A stretch of DNA of 36,123 bases, taken from assembly GCA_947063855.1 (NCBI GenBank), contig CAMSTW010000034.1, positions 1 to 36,123 on the forward strand, given 5' to 3'. Position numbers and translations under genes: made by a program. The stretch comes from an uncultured Dorea sp. (lineage in GTDB: Bacteria > Bacillota > Clostridia > Lachnospirales > Lachnospiraceae). Below the pieces are notes generated by a model. That model saw nothing but the letters and a program-made list of their open reading frames with translations, was not told the origin of the DNA and did no database searches. Below, in pieces: positions 24,425-35,910 of the stretch; position 1 is the first letter of the stretch, and each line of letters begins with the position of its first letter.

Positions 24425-24453
24425 TTGTCAACCCATCACAAATGTGCTAAGAT
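24425..24453 (+). promoter_or_regulatory. Promoter of the DUF4317 gene
   Basis: -35 TTGTCA (24425-24430), 17-nt spacer, -10 TAAGAT (24448-24453). The start is near 24460. Confidence 0.7.
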
Positions 24454-24503
24454 TGGAGAAGCTGCCAGCGGAATATTCTTTAGAAAAGGAAGTGCAGACA
24501 ATT

Positions 24504-25622
24504 ATGAATAAGAAAGAGATACTTGAGATCCGCAAGCAGTTCACTCCGGAGAACTGCGCCATCACGCGTATCTGCGGCTGCTATGTGGATCACGAGAAGG
24601 AGAAGAAGGCGGAACTTAAGAAAGCCTTCCTGTCCCTGCCGGAGGAGGAAGCATTCAAATACTTCGATATCTTCCGTCATACCCTCTCCGGCACGCTGGG
24701 GAAGAACATGCTCAATATGAGTTTCCCTCTTGATGCAGAGCTTGATGGGGGCGCTCAGGAATTTCTCCTGAAGCTCCGCGACAGTAAGCTTACAGACGAC
24801 CTTCTGGTCGAAGAATTCTATGACCGGGTTATTGACAATTACATTTACGCAGAGAATTACTACATCATCCTGATCCATGCAGTATATGACGTCCCCGGCA
24901 GATCTTCTGACGGTATGGAGATGTTCGACGCTTCAGATACAGTGTACGAGCATATCCTGTGCAGCATCTGCCCCGTGAACCTGACGAAGGCCGGCCTTAC
25001 ATATAACGCAGAGACCAACAATATCGAGGACCGGATCCGCGACTGGATTGTGGAGGCTCCTGCGAAGGGTTTCCTCTTCCCTGCATTCCAGGACCGTTCC
25101 AGCGATGTCCACAATATCCTGTATTACACCAAGAAGCCGGAAGACCTTCAGCCGGAACTGATTGCGAATGTACTTGGGAGCACCATTCCGCTGACAGCGG
25201 GGGATCAGAAGACCACATTCCAGTCGATCATCAGCGATACGCTTGGGGAAGACTGTGAGTACGAGGTGATCCGTAATATCCATGACAATCTGAATGAGAT
25301 GCTGGAGGAATCGAAGGAAGAACCGGAGCCGCTGGAGTTATCCAAACCAGAGGTTAAGAAGCTGCTTGCCAAAAGCGGCGTATCTGAGGACAGGCTTGAA
25401 TCCTTCGACGAAGAATTTGAACAGGCCGTCGGCGGGAAGCAGACCCTGCTCGCTTCCAACATCGCCAGTGTGAAGAACTTCCAGATAGAGACGCCCGATG
25501 TAGTTGTGAAGGTGAACCCGGAGCGTTCCGACCTGGTGGAGACGCGGGAGATTGACGGGCGGCGTTGTCTGGTGATTGCGATTGACGATCATCTGGAAGT
25601 GAACGGAATCGAAGTCCACTAA
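24504..25622 (+). CDS. DUF4317 domain protein
   Basis: A 372-residue soluble protein matching the DUF4317 family as I recall it: it begins MNKKEILEIRKQFTPENCAI, followed by ITRICGCYVDHEKEKK and later DVHNILYYTKKPEDL. Function is unknown. Members occur across Clostridia as stand-alone genes. The start at 24504 follows AAGGAAGTG. An upstream in-frame ATG at 24444 lies before the predicted -10 box and cannot be used. Single gene between its own promoter and a strong terminator. Confidence 0.85.
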   Translation: MNKKEILEIRKQFTPENCAITRICGCYVDHEKEKKAELKKAFLSLPEEEAFKYFDIFRHTLSGTLGKNMLNMSFPLDAELDGGAQEFLLKLRDSKLTDDLLVEEFYDRVIDNYIYAENYYIILIHAVYDVPGRSSDGMEMFDASDTVYEHILCSICPVNLTKAGLTYNAETNNIEDRIRDWIVEAPAKGFLFPAFQDRSSDVHNILYYTKKPEDLQPELIANVLGSTIPLTAGDQKTTFQSIISDTLGEDCEYEVIRNIHDNLNEMLEESKEEPEPLELSKPEVKKLLAKSGVSEDRLESFDEEFEQAVGGKQTLLASNIASVKNFQIETPDVVVKVNPERSDLVETREIDGRRCLVIAIDDHLEVNGIEVH

Positions 25623-25757: not shown

Positions 25758-25840
25758 GCGGAGATGGCGGAATGGCAGACGCGCTAGATTCAGGTTCTAG
25801 TGGGAGCAATCCTGTGAGGGTTCAAGTCCCTTTCTCCGCA
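25758..25840 (+). tRNA. tRNA-Leu (anticodon CAG)
   Basis: 83 nt. Acceptor GCGGAGA pairs with TCTCCGC, discriminator A. Anticodon stem CTAGA/TCTAG encloses TTCAGGT, anticodon CAG. A long variable arm and T-arm GGGTTCAAGTCCC complete a class II tRNA. CCA is not encoded. Confidence 0.96.
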
Positions 25841-25845
25841 GTTTA

Positions 25846-25890
25846 CGGTGCGAAGTTGAACCCCGGAGGTTTAGATTTTCGCACCGTTTT
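25846..25890 (+). ncRNA. Conserved hairpin tail of tRNA-Leu, copy 1
   Basis: Starts 5 nt after the tRNA. Outer stem CGGTGCGAA/TTCGCACCG and inner GAACC/GGTTT, followed by TTTT. It is homologous to the element at 35781-35824 behind the other tRNA-Leu. The two differ by a compensatory pair (T-A here, C-G there) in the outer stem. It could be a first terminator or a processed 3' RNA. Confidence 0.65.
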
Positions 25891-25904
25891 ATGCATTGAA
25901 TCAT

Positions 25905-25945
25905 AATCCCGAAGCCTTGAAAACAAAGAGCTTCGGGATTTTTTT
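25905..25945 (+). terminator. Second terminator of the tRNA-Leu(CAG) unit
   Basis: AATCCCGAAGC (25905-25915) pairs with GCTTCGGGATT (25930-25940), and the T-run continues to 25945. It begins 17 nt after the TTTT of the hairpin tail, as in the other tRNA-Leu unit. Confidence 0.88.
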
Positions 25946-32480: not shown

Positions 32481-32630
32481 TCCATCTTCCGAATCGGCGC
32501 AACACCCGATCAAGTATCACAGCTATATCTTCCATCTTCCTGACCAGCGCAATGCCCAATTGGAAATCGCAGCTATATTTTCCATCTTCCTGACCGGCGC
32601 AATGCCTAACCGGGTATCGCAGCTATGCCT
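32481..32630. repeat. Three direct tandem repeats of exactly 50 bp
   Basis: TCCATCTTCC starts units at 32481, 32531 and 32581. Conserved parts are TCCATCTTCC, GCGCAA and ATCGCAGCTATA-like ends, while the ~10 nt in the middle vary. On the minus strand each unit can form a short hairpin (GCGAT with ATTGC). The third unit includes the feoB stop codon. The period is not a multiple of three, so it is not coding. Confidence 0.9.
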
Positions 32631-34788
32631 GCGCCCTGCTCCCGGATGAAACAGACAACTTCATGCTGAATACCTCTGACTCCTTATACGGCCTGAACAG
32701 CAGATACAGGAATCCAATCAGCACCAGAAGCGCTGCCACAGTTCCTGTCCCGAATCCTCCCCCCGCAAATAACATTCCAAACTGATAGATGCACAGCGAC
32801 ACTGCGTAAGCGAATATACACTGATATCCAATCGCAAACCAGGTCCACTTCGCACTGTTCATCTCCCTCTTGATCGCACCGATTGCCGCAAAGCATGGCG
32901 CACACAGCAGGTTGAACACCAGGAAAGAGTACGCTGAGAGAGCCGTCATCTCTGCCGCCAGTGTCCCCCAGATCTCAGTCCCATCCTCTGCCACTTCTGC
33001 GAACCCAAAGAGAATACCGAAGGTTCCTACCACATTTTCCTTCGCAACAAGCCCTGTGATCGCTGCAACCGCAGACCGCCAGTCACCAAATCCCAGCGGA
33101 GTGAAGATCCACGCAAAGGCCCGTCCGATACCTGCCAGGAATCCGTCGCTTAAGTCTTCCACCATTCCAAACTGTCCGTCTACAATCCCGAATCCGGAGG
33201 TAAACCATATGATGACCGTTGACAGCAGAATCACCGTTCCCGCCTTCTTGATAAAAGACCATCCTCTCTCCCACATGCTTCTTAAGACATTTCCCACCGT
33301 CGGCATATGATAAGCCGGAAGTTCCATCACAAAGGGCGCCGGATCTCCCGCGAACATCCTTGTCTTCTTCAGAATGATACCGGAGCAGATAATTGCCGCA
33401 ATACCTGCAAAATAAGCGCTTGGCGCTACCCAGGAAGCACCGTCAAACAGCGCGCCCGCGATCAATGCAATGATTGGCAGTTTCGCACCGCATGGGATAA
33501 ATGTAGTCGTCATGATCGTCATCTTGCGGTCGCGGTCATTCTCGATGGTACGGGACGCCATGATTCCCGGTACGCCGCACCCGGTTCCGATCAGCATCGG
33601 GATAAATGATTTGCCCGACAGGCCGAATTTGCGGAAGATTCTGTCCATGATAAATGCAATCCTTGCCATATAACCGCATGCCTCCAGGAACGCAAGAAAG
33701 ATAAACAATACCAGCATCTGCGGTACGAATCCCAGAACCGCGCCCACGCCGGCTATGATACCATTAAGAATCAGTCCCATGAGCCAGTCTGCACAATGTA
33801 TGCTTACAAGAAACTTCTCTGCCGCGGGCGGAATGATTTCTCCAAACAACACATCATTGGTCCAGTCCGTCACGATGGCTCCCACCGTTGAAACCGATAC
33901 ATAATAGACCACCCACATCACGGCTGCAAAAATCGGCAGCGCCAGCCAACGGTTCGTGACAATCCGGTCAATCTTATCCGAAGCCGTCAGCTTCTCTTTC
34001 CCGGCCTTTTGAAGGCATCCCCCTGTCACGGACGCTATGTAATGATACCGTTCATTCGTGATAATACTCTCCGTATCATCATCCAGCTTCTCCTCTGCCT
34101 CTGAAATGATATGCGATACATCCGGCGCATCGGCCATCTGCTCCCTGACCTTTTCGTCTCTTTCAAATAATTTCACCGCATAGAACCGCTTCTGCTTCTC
34201 CGGCACATCCGCCAGCATATTCTCAATCTTCTCAAGATATCCTTCCACCTCTGCCGAAAATGTATGGACACGCGAATGGGCGCCGGCGTCCGCGTTCTTA
34301 TTGTGCGCCAGTCTTACCGCCCTTTCCGCCGCTTCACTGACGCCGTCGCCCTTCAGCGCAGAAACAGGTACGACCTCACATCCCAGTTTTCCCGACAGCG
34401 CCTGCATGTCAATCCGGTCGCCGGATTTTCTCACCGCGTCCATCATATTGACCGCCATCACAACCGGGATCCCCAGTTCCATCAGCTGCGTACTCAGATA
34501 GAGATTCCGCTCCAGATTCGTCCCGTCCACGATATTCAGGATTACGTCCGGATGCTCTGCCGTCAGATAATTCCTGGCGACCACTTCCTCCAATGTATAT
34601 GGCGACAGCGAATAGATGCCCGGCAGATCTGTAATCGTGACCTCTTTATTTCCCTTTAATTTCCCTTCCTTCTTCTCAACGGTAACTCCCGGCCAGTTCC
34701 CTACGAACTGGTTTGAACCCGTGAGCGCGTTGAACAATGTTGTCTTCCCGCTGTTGGGGTTGCCTGCAAGTGCGATTTTCACTCCCAT
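32623..34788 (-). CDS. feoB: Ferrous iron transporter FeoB
   Basis: A 721-residue membrane GTPase. G1 GNPNSGKTT lies at the N-terminus, then GVTVEKKEG, G3 DLPGIYSLSPYT and G4 NMMD. A helical GDI-like region follows, then a membrane domain with two gate regions (MLIGTGCGVPGIMASRTIENDRDRK in part, and the FIPCGAKLPI segment with a conserved Cys). It imports Fe2+ across the cytoplasmic membrane. Start: ATG 34786-34788 behind GGAGGCAGG. The frame extends upstream to 34857 without a ribosome site. It is the fourth gene of the feo operon. Confidence 0.96.
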   Translation of the reverse strand: MGVKIALAGNPNSGKTTLFNALTGSNQFVGNWPGVTVEKKEGKLKGNKEVTITDLPGIYSLSPYTLEEVVARNYLTAEHPDVILNIVDGTNLERNLYLSTQLMELGIPVVMAVNMMDAVRKSGDRIDMQALSGKLGCEVVPVSALKGDGVSEAAERAVRLAHNKNADAGAHSRVHTFSAEVEGYLEKIENMLADVPEKQKRFYAVKLFERDEKVREQMADAPDVSHIISEAEEKLDDDTESIITNERYHYIASVTGGCLQKAGKEKLTASDKIDRIVTNRWLALPIFAAVMWVVYYVSVSTVGAIVTDWTNDVLFGEIIPPAAEKFLVSIHCADWLMGLILNGIIAGVGAVLGFVPQMLVLFIFLAFLEACGYMARIAFIMDRIFRKFGLSGKSFIPMLIGTGCGVPGIMASRTIENDRDRKMTIMTTTFIPCGAKLPIIALIAGALFDGASWVAPSAYFAGIAAIICSGIILKKTRMFAGDPAPFVMELPAYHMPTVGNVLRSMWERGWSFIKKAGTVILLSTVIIWFTSGFGIVDGQFGMVEDLSDGFLAGIGRAFAWIFTPLGFGDWRSAVAAITGLVAKENVVGTFGILFGFAEVAEDGTEIWGTLAAEMTALSAYSFLVFNLLCAPCFAAIGAIKREMNSAKWTWFAIGYQCIFAYAVSLCIYQFGMLFAGGGFGTGTVAALLVLIGFLYLLFRPYKESEVFSMKLSVSSGSRAQA

Positions 34789-34807
34789 TTTCCTGCCTCC
34801 TGTTCTG

Positions 34808-35086
34808 TTATGATGTACTCTCAAAGCCTCTCCTGCGCCCGGTCTTGCCGTGCACAATCATATCCTGCTGCACTTCAATCATCTGCGCGTCCGCTTTCCT
34901 CAGCGACAGCTCATATCCTCTGACCCTAACCTCCACCGGATCTCCAAGCGGCGCAACCTTCCTTACATATACCGGCGTTCCCTTTGTGATCCCCATATCC
35001 ATGATCCTCCGTTTTGTCGCGCCTTCGCCGTGAAGCTTCACAACCACCACATTCTGATCACATTTTACATCTCTTAACGTAAGCAT
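34808..35086 (-). CDS. feoA: FeoA-family protein (second copy in operon)
   Basis: A 92-residue SH3-like FeoA protein: VVVVKLHGEGATKRRIMDMGITKGTPVYVRKVAPLGDP is the family core, with the GDP-VEVRVRGYELSLRK end. Such proteins bind and regulate FeoB. AGGAGG precedes the ATG, and the gene ends 19 nt before feoB. It carries a basic C-terminal extension (KTGRRRGFESTS). Confidence 0.93.
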   Translation of the reverse strand: MLTLRDVKCDQNVVVVKLHGEGATKRRIMDMGITKGTPVYVRKVAPLGDPVEVRVRGYELSLRKADAQMIEVQQDMIVHGKTGRRRGFESTS

Positions 35087-35099
35087 GAACCATTTCCTC

Positions 35100-35309
35100 C
35101 TATATCATAATCTTATTTGCAATTCCCCTACTTACCGCAACTCTGGAATCCTTCACCTGAACGATGATATTTCCATTATTGCTTGAAACGACCCGGATCC
35201 TCTCCCCTGCCGTAAATCCCAGGTTCTCAAGAAACCTTTTTGATTCGTCTCTTCCACCGATCCTCTTAATCGCAGCGTCCTCACCCGCCCCAAGCATCGT
35301 CAATGGCAT
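35100..35309 (-). CDS. feoA: FeoA-family protein (first copy in operon)
   Basis: A 69-residue FeoA-type SH3 protein: AAIKRIGGRDESKRFLENLGF, TAGERIRVVSSNNGN, VAVSRGIANKIMI. Start: two adjacent ATGs (35310-35312 and 35307-35309) follow GAGGTG. The second has the better 6-nt spacing. A longer frame to 35417 lies inside the Fur-like gene and is unlikely. Two different FeoA proteins in one operon is common in Clostridia. Confidence 0.88.
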   Translation of the reverse strand: MPLTMLGAGEDAAIKRIGGRDESKRFLENLGFTAGERIRVVSSNNGNIIVQVKDSRVAVSRGIANKIMI

Positions 35310-35340
35310 CATAATCACCTCTCTCTCCGGCCGCCATAGC

Positions 35341-35589
35341 TTATAGCCGTACGACCATCTCCTTATGAATAATCTCCATATCCATAAGCAGCTGTACCAT
35401 ACGATACACCGTCGCAATTCCTACCCTGTGGTCTTTTTCTTTTGCGGCAAAATATATCTCTTTGCAGGAAGAATATTCATTCTCCAGGATCATCTGTATC
35501 AACATCTTCCTCTGTGCGGTAATCCTGTATCCACGATCCTTCAGCTCCCTGATCACAGTTTCTGCTTTTTCTTCCTTTTTCAGACACAT
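35341..35589 (-). CDS. Fur-family regulator reduced to its DNA-binding domain (82 aa)
   Basis: An 82-residue protein with only the winged-helix part of Fur: ELKDRGYRITAQRKMLIQMIL, SSCKEIYFAAKEKDHRVGIATVYRMVQLL. It stops right after the wing (IIHKEMVVRL). The C-terminal dimerisation and metal-sensing domain (another 50-70 residues) is missing, and the feoA start follows 31 nt later, so there is no room for it. It may bind DNA without metal sensing or be a remnant. AGAGGTGAAGT precedes the ATG. It is the first gene of the operon, directly behind Fur-like boxes. Confidence 0.85.
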   Translation of the reverse strand: MCLKKEEKAETVIRELKDRGYRITAQRKMLIQMILENEYSSCKEIYFAAKEKDHRVGIATVYRMVQLLMDMEIIHKEMVVRL

Positions 35590-35726: not shown

Positions 35727-35763
35727 AAAAAAAGCCCGAAGCCCTTTATTCAAAGACTTCGGG
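35727..35763 (-). terminator. Terminator of the tRNA-Leu(UAG) unit
   Basis: Minus strand: CCCGAAG (35757-35763) pairs with CTTCGGG (35735-35741), with flanking pairs, then a seven-T run (35727-35733). Confidence 0.88.
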
Positions 35764-35780
35764 AATCTGGTTCCATACGC

Positions 35781-35824
35781 AAAACGGCGCGAAACATGAA
35801 CCATCGCGGTTCCATTTCGCGCCG
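35781..35824 (-). ncRNA. Conserved hairpin tail of tRNA-Leu, copy 2
   Basis: Starts 5 nt after the tRNA-Leu(UAG) 3' end. Outer stem CGGCGCGAA/TTCGCGCCG and inner GAACC/GGTTC, then TTTT and 17 nt to the terminator stem. The same architecture and spacing is found behind tRNA-Leu(CAG) at 25846. Confidence 0.65.
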
Positions 35825-35829
35825 CAGGA

Positions 35830-35910
35830 TGCGGATGACAGGACTTGAACCTGCACGGGAAGCCCACTAGATCCTAAGTCTAGCGCGTCTGCCAATTCCG
35901 CCACATCCGC
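35830..35910 (-). tRNA. tRNA-Leu (anticodon UAG)
   Basis: 81 nt. Acceptor GCGGATG/CATCCGC, discriminator A. Anticodon stem CTAGA/TCTAG encloses CTTAGGA, anticodon TAG. Long variable arm and T-arm CAGGTTCAAGTCCTG. CCA is not encoded. Confidence 0.96.

Follow-up and report, generated by a model that had tools for sequence, protein, structure and literature searches.

A conserved sense-strand hairpin unit in the 3' flank of tRNA-Leu genes of Lachnospiraceae

tRNA genes are favourite landing sites of phages, and the DNA just behind them is usually treated as inert. In Escherichia coli, 3'ETS-leuZ is a tRNA trailer that acts as a sponge, and repeats of approximately 178 nt (rtT) lie behind tyrT. 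Short imperfect hairpins in several copies are features of REP elements. The small RNAs RrA, RrB, and RrF lie behind rRNA operons and bind Hfq and CsrA (PMC8144298). A survey of stem–loop families removed tRNA-related clusters from its set (PMC2267715). In the open-access PMC literature, we found no published account of the hairpin unit behind tRNA-Leu genes that we describe here.

The window (the whole stretch of DNA analysed, 36,123 nt) is one whole contig of a genome of an uncultured Dorea sp. (3.34 Mb, 84 per cent complete). It contains two tRNA-Leu genes with similar tails, whose features are as follows.

25758..25840, + strand: tRNA-Leu(CAG), without encoded CCA, 3' end ...CTCCGCA
25841..25845, + strand: CAG tail, 5-nt spacer, the first nucleotides of the unit
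25846..25886, + strand: CAG tail, conserved unit hairpin of 41 nt, GCGAA..GAACC.....GGTTT..TTCGC
25887..25895, + strand: CAG tail, TTTTATGCA, 3' end of the ~54-nt unit (consensus TTTTGYGYA)
25896..25945, + strand: CAG tail, TTGAATCATAAT and CCCGAAG/CTTCGGG terminator, resembling the phage att core of relatives
25887–25890, 25891–25907, and from 25908, + strand: TTTT, 17 nt, and the CCCGAAG..CTTCGGG terminator of the CAG tail
35830..35910, − strand: tRNA-Leu(UAG), 3' end ...CATCCGCA
35825..35829, − strand: UAG tail, 5-nt unit spacer
35785..35824, − strand: UAG tail, conserved unit hairpin of 40 nt
35776..35784, − strand: UAG tail, TTTTGCGTA, 3' end of the unit
35727..35775, − strand: UAG tail, TGGAACCAGATT and CCCGAAG/CTTCGGG terminator block
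35784–35781, 35780–35764, and from 35763, − strand: TTTT, 17 nt, and the terminator of the UAG tail

A preliminary description of this DNA had reported that the two tails share order and spacing and that a T-A pair in the outer stem of one copy is C-G in the other. The coordinates confirm both copies, and the compensatory pair is present between the CAG and UAG hairpins; none of 200 shuffles folds as well as these hairpins (z = −5.6 and −4.2, respectively). In relatives, the terminator block is a phage attachment core (see below), so the matching order and spacing are attributable to 3'-flank DNA that is shared and exchanged no less than to function. The neighbouring genes are a DUF4317 protein gene upstream of tRNA-Leu(CAG) (24444–25622, + strand) and, downstream of tRNA-Leu(UAG), an 82-aa ORF that is possibly cut short (35341–35589, − strand), followed by FeoA (35100–35417, − strand) and FeoB (32623–34857, − strand); the 82-aa ORF is presumably Fur-like, judging by its sequence features.

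The observation proved correct and larger than first stated, with copies at four genes of the window's own genome and across the family. Pattern and tRNA searches located the CAG and UAG genes of the window, a CAA gene (contig C5), and an AAG gene (C19), and each of these four, the only tRNA-Leu genes detected in the incomplete genome, has the hairpin approximately 5 nt past the gene end. Among the 17 other tRNA genes called, Met and Gly genes run into contig ends, and none of the 15 with readable downstream DNA is followed by the hairpin. A covariance model of the four copies retrieved no further match in this genome. The tail leaves the predicted tRNA fold unchanged in three of the four genes; for UAG, the predicted minimum mixes tRNA and tail. 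The CCCGAAG terminator occurs in this genome only behind the CAG and UAG genes, and it is a separate block, because relatives without the hairpin also have it. No phage trace was seen at the window's own tRNA-Leu loci. Near tRNA-Gln and tRNA-Pro genes of the same genome, one stretch (L017, 1768–2136, − strand) is weakly similar to the 372-aa integrase introduced below (21 per cent over 149 aa, E = 8e-6). Membership in a known Rfam family was rejected: at the gathering level, Rfam 15 gives only tRNA in the window, and the best weak match of the CAG tail is the trpB motif (27.2 bits vs 59).

The unit comprises approximately 54 nt: a 5-nt spacer, a hairpin of 17 bp in which one A is bulged and the loop varies, and UUUUGYGYA, which is the only conserved single-stranded part. 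Its consensus reads (T/G)NNN(A/G), then GGCGCGAAAUCGAAC-N6-GGUUC-A-GGUUUCGCGCC, then GUUUUGYGYA. The unit starts immediately behind the terminal GCA of the tRNA, or some bases later at four loci (L084, L085, L086, and L093), and at five loci (L125, L129, L131, L146, and L147) two units stand head to tail.

We aligned 46 units, collected by models or by a pattern in which the hairpin is presupposed; left out were short or shifted units (L048, L084, L085, L090, L093, L095, L105, and L106), the second copy in each of the tandems L147 and L129, and identical or nearly identical units (L075, L076, L078, L079, L082, and L151). In this alignment, 91.9 per cent of cells pair and 11 of the 17 pairs show double changes; none of 500 shuffles reaches any of five measures, and slid structures score far lower. 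G.U cells outnumber A.C cells 91 to 11, and in 29 rows from the pattern scan (some also found by the models) the counts are 61 and 7, or 19 and 4 in columns free of the pattern. The transcribed strand is therefore the folding one, and the selection on RNA structure that the preliminary description had deduced from a single pair is upheld. Outside the alignment, L223/L106 has AAA/TTT of the stem replaced by GGG/CCC. Chance origin of the hairpin is ruled out by the shuffles, the genome and family searches, and the covariation. A common neighbouring gene was also sought (nearest one upstream and two downstream ORFs, 48 loci), and none was found beyond ordinary synteny.

The proposed covariance-model search across relatives, asking whether matches sit behind tRNAs, did find further copies behind tRNAs. 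In 40 relatives searched on the plus strand with the four-copy model, every match better than 1e-4 lies behind tRNA-Leu (two loci in G007, one in G009, and one in G008). A nine-sequence model gave matches in 43 of 397 family genomes at E = 1e-3 or better. Of the 21 forward matches of at least 36 bits, four of them from the window's own genome, 19 are behind tRNA-Leu, one is behind a tRNA-Leu 3' fragment (L105), and one is elsewhere (L088, 33–36 bits, a copy away from an intact tRNA). Counting weaker matches, a unit directly follows a tRNA gene in 20 of the 397 genomes; these bulk counts are lower bounds, because genomes were scored with strict filters. One of these units follows a tRNA-Arg(CCG) gene that also ends in GCA (GTGCA; L091, 51 bits with the final model, itself built with L091). 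The remaining family matches (20–36 bits) have no tRNA directly before them and mostly look like ordinary terminators.

A pattern scan of named genomes, several of them the same as in the 397-genome search, yielded 33 stretches, of which 28 are behind tRNA-Leu and one is behind a tRNA fragment (L143); the other four are not near a tRNA and come from records of other phyla. The source is labelled Lachnospiraceae, Dorea, Coprococcus, Roseburia, Faecalicatena, or Mediterraneibacter for 23 of the 28 and has no family name for five; these genera belong to Lachnospiraceae. One of the carriers is a cultured strain, Mediterraneibacter agrestimuris DSM 111629 (L141). When 23 named carrier genomes were searched with a model, six further copies of at least 38 bits emerged besides the seeds and tandem partners. 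Four are behind tRNA-Leu (L273, L274, L277, and L282) and two are not: a 47-bit unit directly after GTGTA with no tRNA before it (L278, around 1501) and a 41-bit copy behind GGTTCAAGTTTTGCGCA, away from an intact tRNA (G803, C40). By the labels of its named carriers, the unit is an accessory cassette of Lachnospiraceae. Occurrence outside the family was set aside: among 391 genomes of the class (some of the same family), no match lies directly behind tRNA-Leu besides those of the window's genome, and 12 other genomes have matches of 29–37 bits, one of them approximately 30 nt behind tRNA-Cys (L208). In another genus, a tRNA-Leu(CAG) gene is followed by a different hairpin that shares the GGAAC..GGTTCAGG heart (L186, 1303–1351, − strand; 24 bits), perhaps a distant member.

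Many tRNA-Leu genes have no unit. In a sample of 35 other family genomes, none of 37 tRNA-Leu genes located by a pattern (in 21 genomes, one gene at a contig end) carried it, the best nearby match having 24 bits, and 12 of the 19 genes located in carrier genomes lacked it; neither 0/37 nor 7/19 is a rate, because the pattern finds only part of the tRNA-Leu genes (it missed the AAG gene of G015, a carrier [L093, 36 bits], and the carrier genes of G200, G211, G264, and G309). The unit is therefore not needed for tRNA-Leu as such, and a general tRNA-Leu maturation signal, one of the options raised initially, does not agree with these counts, even with at least one carrier gene (G015) missed.

At orthologous loci within the genus, the unit is present or absent as a block starting from the tRNA end. 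Among CAA loci with collinear genes on both sides, G000, G004, and G009 are filled and G003, G005, G008, and G010 are empty; the CAA locus of G006 is also empty, with a matching upstream side and a prophage downstream. In the cleanest pairs, empty sites read GCA, TTGAATNAG..terminator (CAA in G003, G006, and G010; CAG in G005 and G011), and filled sites read GCA, unit, TTGAATNA..terminator (CAA and CAG in G007; CAG in the window).

The identities among units do not follow the isoacceptors. Within the genus, units at the same isoacceptor are 45–75 per cent identical, against background medians of 53–73 per cent, and in eight of nine cases the best match in another genome (identities up to 91 per cent) is at a different isoacceptor. 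Units of G007 and G390, which are different genera by label, are 85–87 per cent identical. The nearest neighbour has the same isoacceptor in 12.25 of 44 cases vs 10.6 expected (P-value = 0.28; 44 of the 46 units, without the Arg and tRNA-fragment units), and the mean distance is 0.291 between paralogues within a genome vs 0.324 between genomes. The unit is therefore not passed down together with a particular tRNA gene. Copying of an entire tRNA locus was ruled out, as acceptor stems and neighbouring genes differ. Taken together, the unit is a conserved sense-strand hairpin found mainly behind tRNA-Leu, in some cases as tandem pairs, and its inheritance does not follow the isoacceptor.

The DNA that adjoins the unit has a phage context in this genus. 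The block TTGAATCAGAATCCCGG..terminator recurs behind tRNA-Leu of CAA (G006), CAG (G011), and UAG (G010) type, and it is followed by a 372-aa phage integrase (96 per cent identical) and repeats AATGGGGCAGAAATGGGGCAA at three isoacceptors in three species. Behind the G011 integrase lie terminase, helicase–primase, polymerase, and exonuclease genes of phage families. G011 also has 70 bp (97 per cent) common to two places at most 40 kb apart, made up of AGTCCCTTTCTCCGCA and the terminator with the same flanking repeats; we read the two places as attL and attR. In the viral contig L292, the core lies between two stretches of phage-side sequence and is accompanied by the integrase (96 per cent); this is either attP or a junction of tandem prophages. 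From these integrases, the shared core of G011, and L292, it follows that phages use the tRNA 3' end together with its terminator as an att core in the genus, and that those with one integrase attach at different tRNA-Leu genes there. An integrase and arm sites adjoin the terminator block in L053, L059, L070, and L292.

For the unit itself, the att contexts observed are limited to one decayed attL and to sites behind fragments of tRNA genes that have been displaced. The CAA locus of G007 has, in order, tRNA, unit, terminator, arm repeats, and 31 codons of the integrase at 84 per cent, which places this unit within the remains of an attL. Behind the units of the G007 CAG locus (L127), L145, and L147 there are likewise arm-like repeats with a period of 11; exact arm-like repeats are present at 3 of 51 loci, where shuffles expect 0.4 (the scan flags five loci, and the repeats of L131 and L134 are of another kind). 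Two units have been displaced to positions behind tRNA 3' fragments (L105 and L143, the latter next to an integrase); they indicate integration upstream of a unit, of which such displacement is a known trace (PMC9897764). Viral pattern scans found no complete unit in viral contigs, and the stretches of prophage DNA examined from G006, G010, and G011 are without one. Near unit loci, relatives of two tested integrases were found only at L143 and as the G007 remnant, in a search that unrelated integrases would escape. Phage or plasmid relatives of the tail were also sought in annotated collections, which returned none or short weak matches, the phage match being a similar terminator.

Five IMG/VR contigs (L295–L299) have, beside GCA, a stretch resembling the 5' half of the unit, followed by phage DNA without the 3' half; a tRNA-Leu (AAG or GAG) is at that place in four of them, L299 being without one. 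The stretch of L296 agrees with the best unit in 21 of 25 letters and that of L295 in only 17 of 25. Either the 5' half of the unit possibly forms part of an att core here, or the likeness possibly arose by chance within a phage gene; convergence may account for it, because the stretch also admits a reading as the terminal part of a phage gene, and the motif itself had been used to find the contigs. The related IMG/VR contigs L224, L225, and L226 have a terminator-like hairpin ending in TTTTGCGCTTTTTTGTGTA, with a partial model match (23.5 bits) and no tRNA found nearby.

In our leading reading, for which we judge the chances about even, the unit would be a new RNA hairpin family of the tRNA-Leu 3' flank that is exchanged by phages and acts in the transcript as a trailer or weak terminator. 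Starting right after the last base of tRNA-Leu (GCA), the unit should be co-transcribed with the tRNA. It would travel in an exchangeable 3' flank as phages integrate, recombine, and decay, and upon cutting of the tRNA 3' end it would leave with the trailer. The hairpin may protect the trailer or serve as a weak first terminator, which would keep the tRNA transcription unit intact. Of the features of an intrinsic terminator, it has the G+C-rich hairpin, and its commonest U-run is only UUUU. A simple scan found a second U-rich terminator within approximately 230 nt at 26 of 47 loci (in L129 and L131 it is the second unit itself) and none at 21, so the hairpin is hardly one thing only. The sequence conservation of the unit is not explained by a weak-terminator role.

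The 21 loci without a second terminator speak for an alternative that we regard as improbable: the tail would be an old cis-acting part of some tRNA-Leu genes (a terminator or 3'-processing hairpin), spread by gene conversion between paralogues and lost by slippage between GCA/GYA repeats. The RNA-level covariation with its G.U/A.C asymmetry, the close copies at two G007 loci, and the short direct repeats flanking the unit agree with it. However, paralogues within a genome are hardly closer to each other than to units of other genomes, the best matches are mostly at other isoacceptors elsewhere, and many tRNA-Leu genes are without the unit. The sponge proposed earlier, a trans-acting small RNA released from the tRNA trailer like 3'ETS-leuZ, appears very unlikely: apart from the position behind tRNA-Leu and a stable hairpin at the 5' end of the would-be released trailer, nothing favours it, and loop and flanks vary, UUUUGYGYA is the sole conserved single-stranded seed, and the occurrence is patchy.

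Mobility of the unit itself is the remaining alternative. It is doubtful that the unit is a minimal non-autonomous mobile element, whether REP-like or a recombination site of folded single-stranded DNA, with insertion directed to the position behind a GCA/GYA motif at tRNA 3' ends. Every tRNA-linked unit that was read has the orientation of its tRNA and starts at GCA or within a few bases of it, the unit end TTTTGYGYA resembles the GCA/GYA target, tandem units occur, and the copies behind GTGCA of tRNA-Arg(CCG) and, off tRNA, behind GTGTA (L278) would suit such a target. Against this, we found no mobilising gene; Y1 (REP/IS200-type) transposases were undetected in 9 of 18 carrier genomes tested, many of them incomplete (G000, G007, G009, G273, G390, G309, G397, G264, and G121; the window's own genome is among the nine); and the window's genome has only four copies, all at tRNA-Leu, which is too specific for a target of 3–4 bases. 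REP/IS200 mobility was set aside on the transposase result, and the many dispersed intergenic copies typical of REP elements are not seen in the window's genome. We hold it similarly unlikely that the unit is a self-contained 54-nt mobile RNA or DNA hairpin that homes to tRNA-Leu 3' ends across the family and builds tandem arrays through phage integration machinery or another enzyme; if true, it would be among the smallest mobile units of cells.

Beyond the choice among these readings, a structured RNA family is tied to the spot behind tRNA-Leu; the tRNA-Leu gene concerned varies between genera, and one genus has clean examples of both filled and empty sites. The unit offers a test of whether integrating phages both carry and rewrite the 3' flanks of their target tRNA genes, and with them termination and processing.

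Among known systems, the tRNA-gene att sites of temperate phages resemble the present case in two respects: the unit adjoins the tRNA 3' end, and in relatives the block next to it is a core of this type. They differ in that no phage core with a complete unit was found. To our knowledge, accounts of tRNA att sites do not usually include a conserved RNA hairpin within the flank that is exchanged. REP elements with their RAYT transposases share the short imperfect hairpin in several copies, whereas the unit is mainly behind tRNA-Leu, has few copies, and is accompanied by no detected Y1 transposase in half of the carriers tested. The rtT RNA, likewise made of repeats behind a tRNA gene, is similar by position only, its repeats of approximately 178 nt contrasting with units of 54 nt with a hairpin. 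3'ETS-leuZ is also a trailer RNA behind tRNA-Leu, but the unit has no seed or target, possesses its own conserved stem, and occurs in a different phylum. RrA, RrB, and RrF differ in being behind rRNA operons, and the abstract on them mentions no exchange between loci (PMC8144298); located between the dual terminators of E. coli rRNA operons, they are like the unit in that a structured RNA separates a stable-RNA gene from the final terminator.
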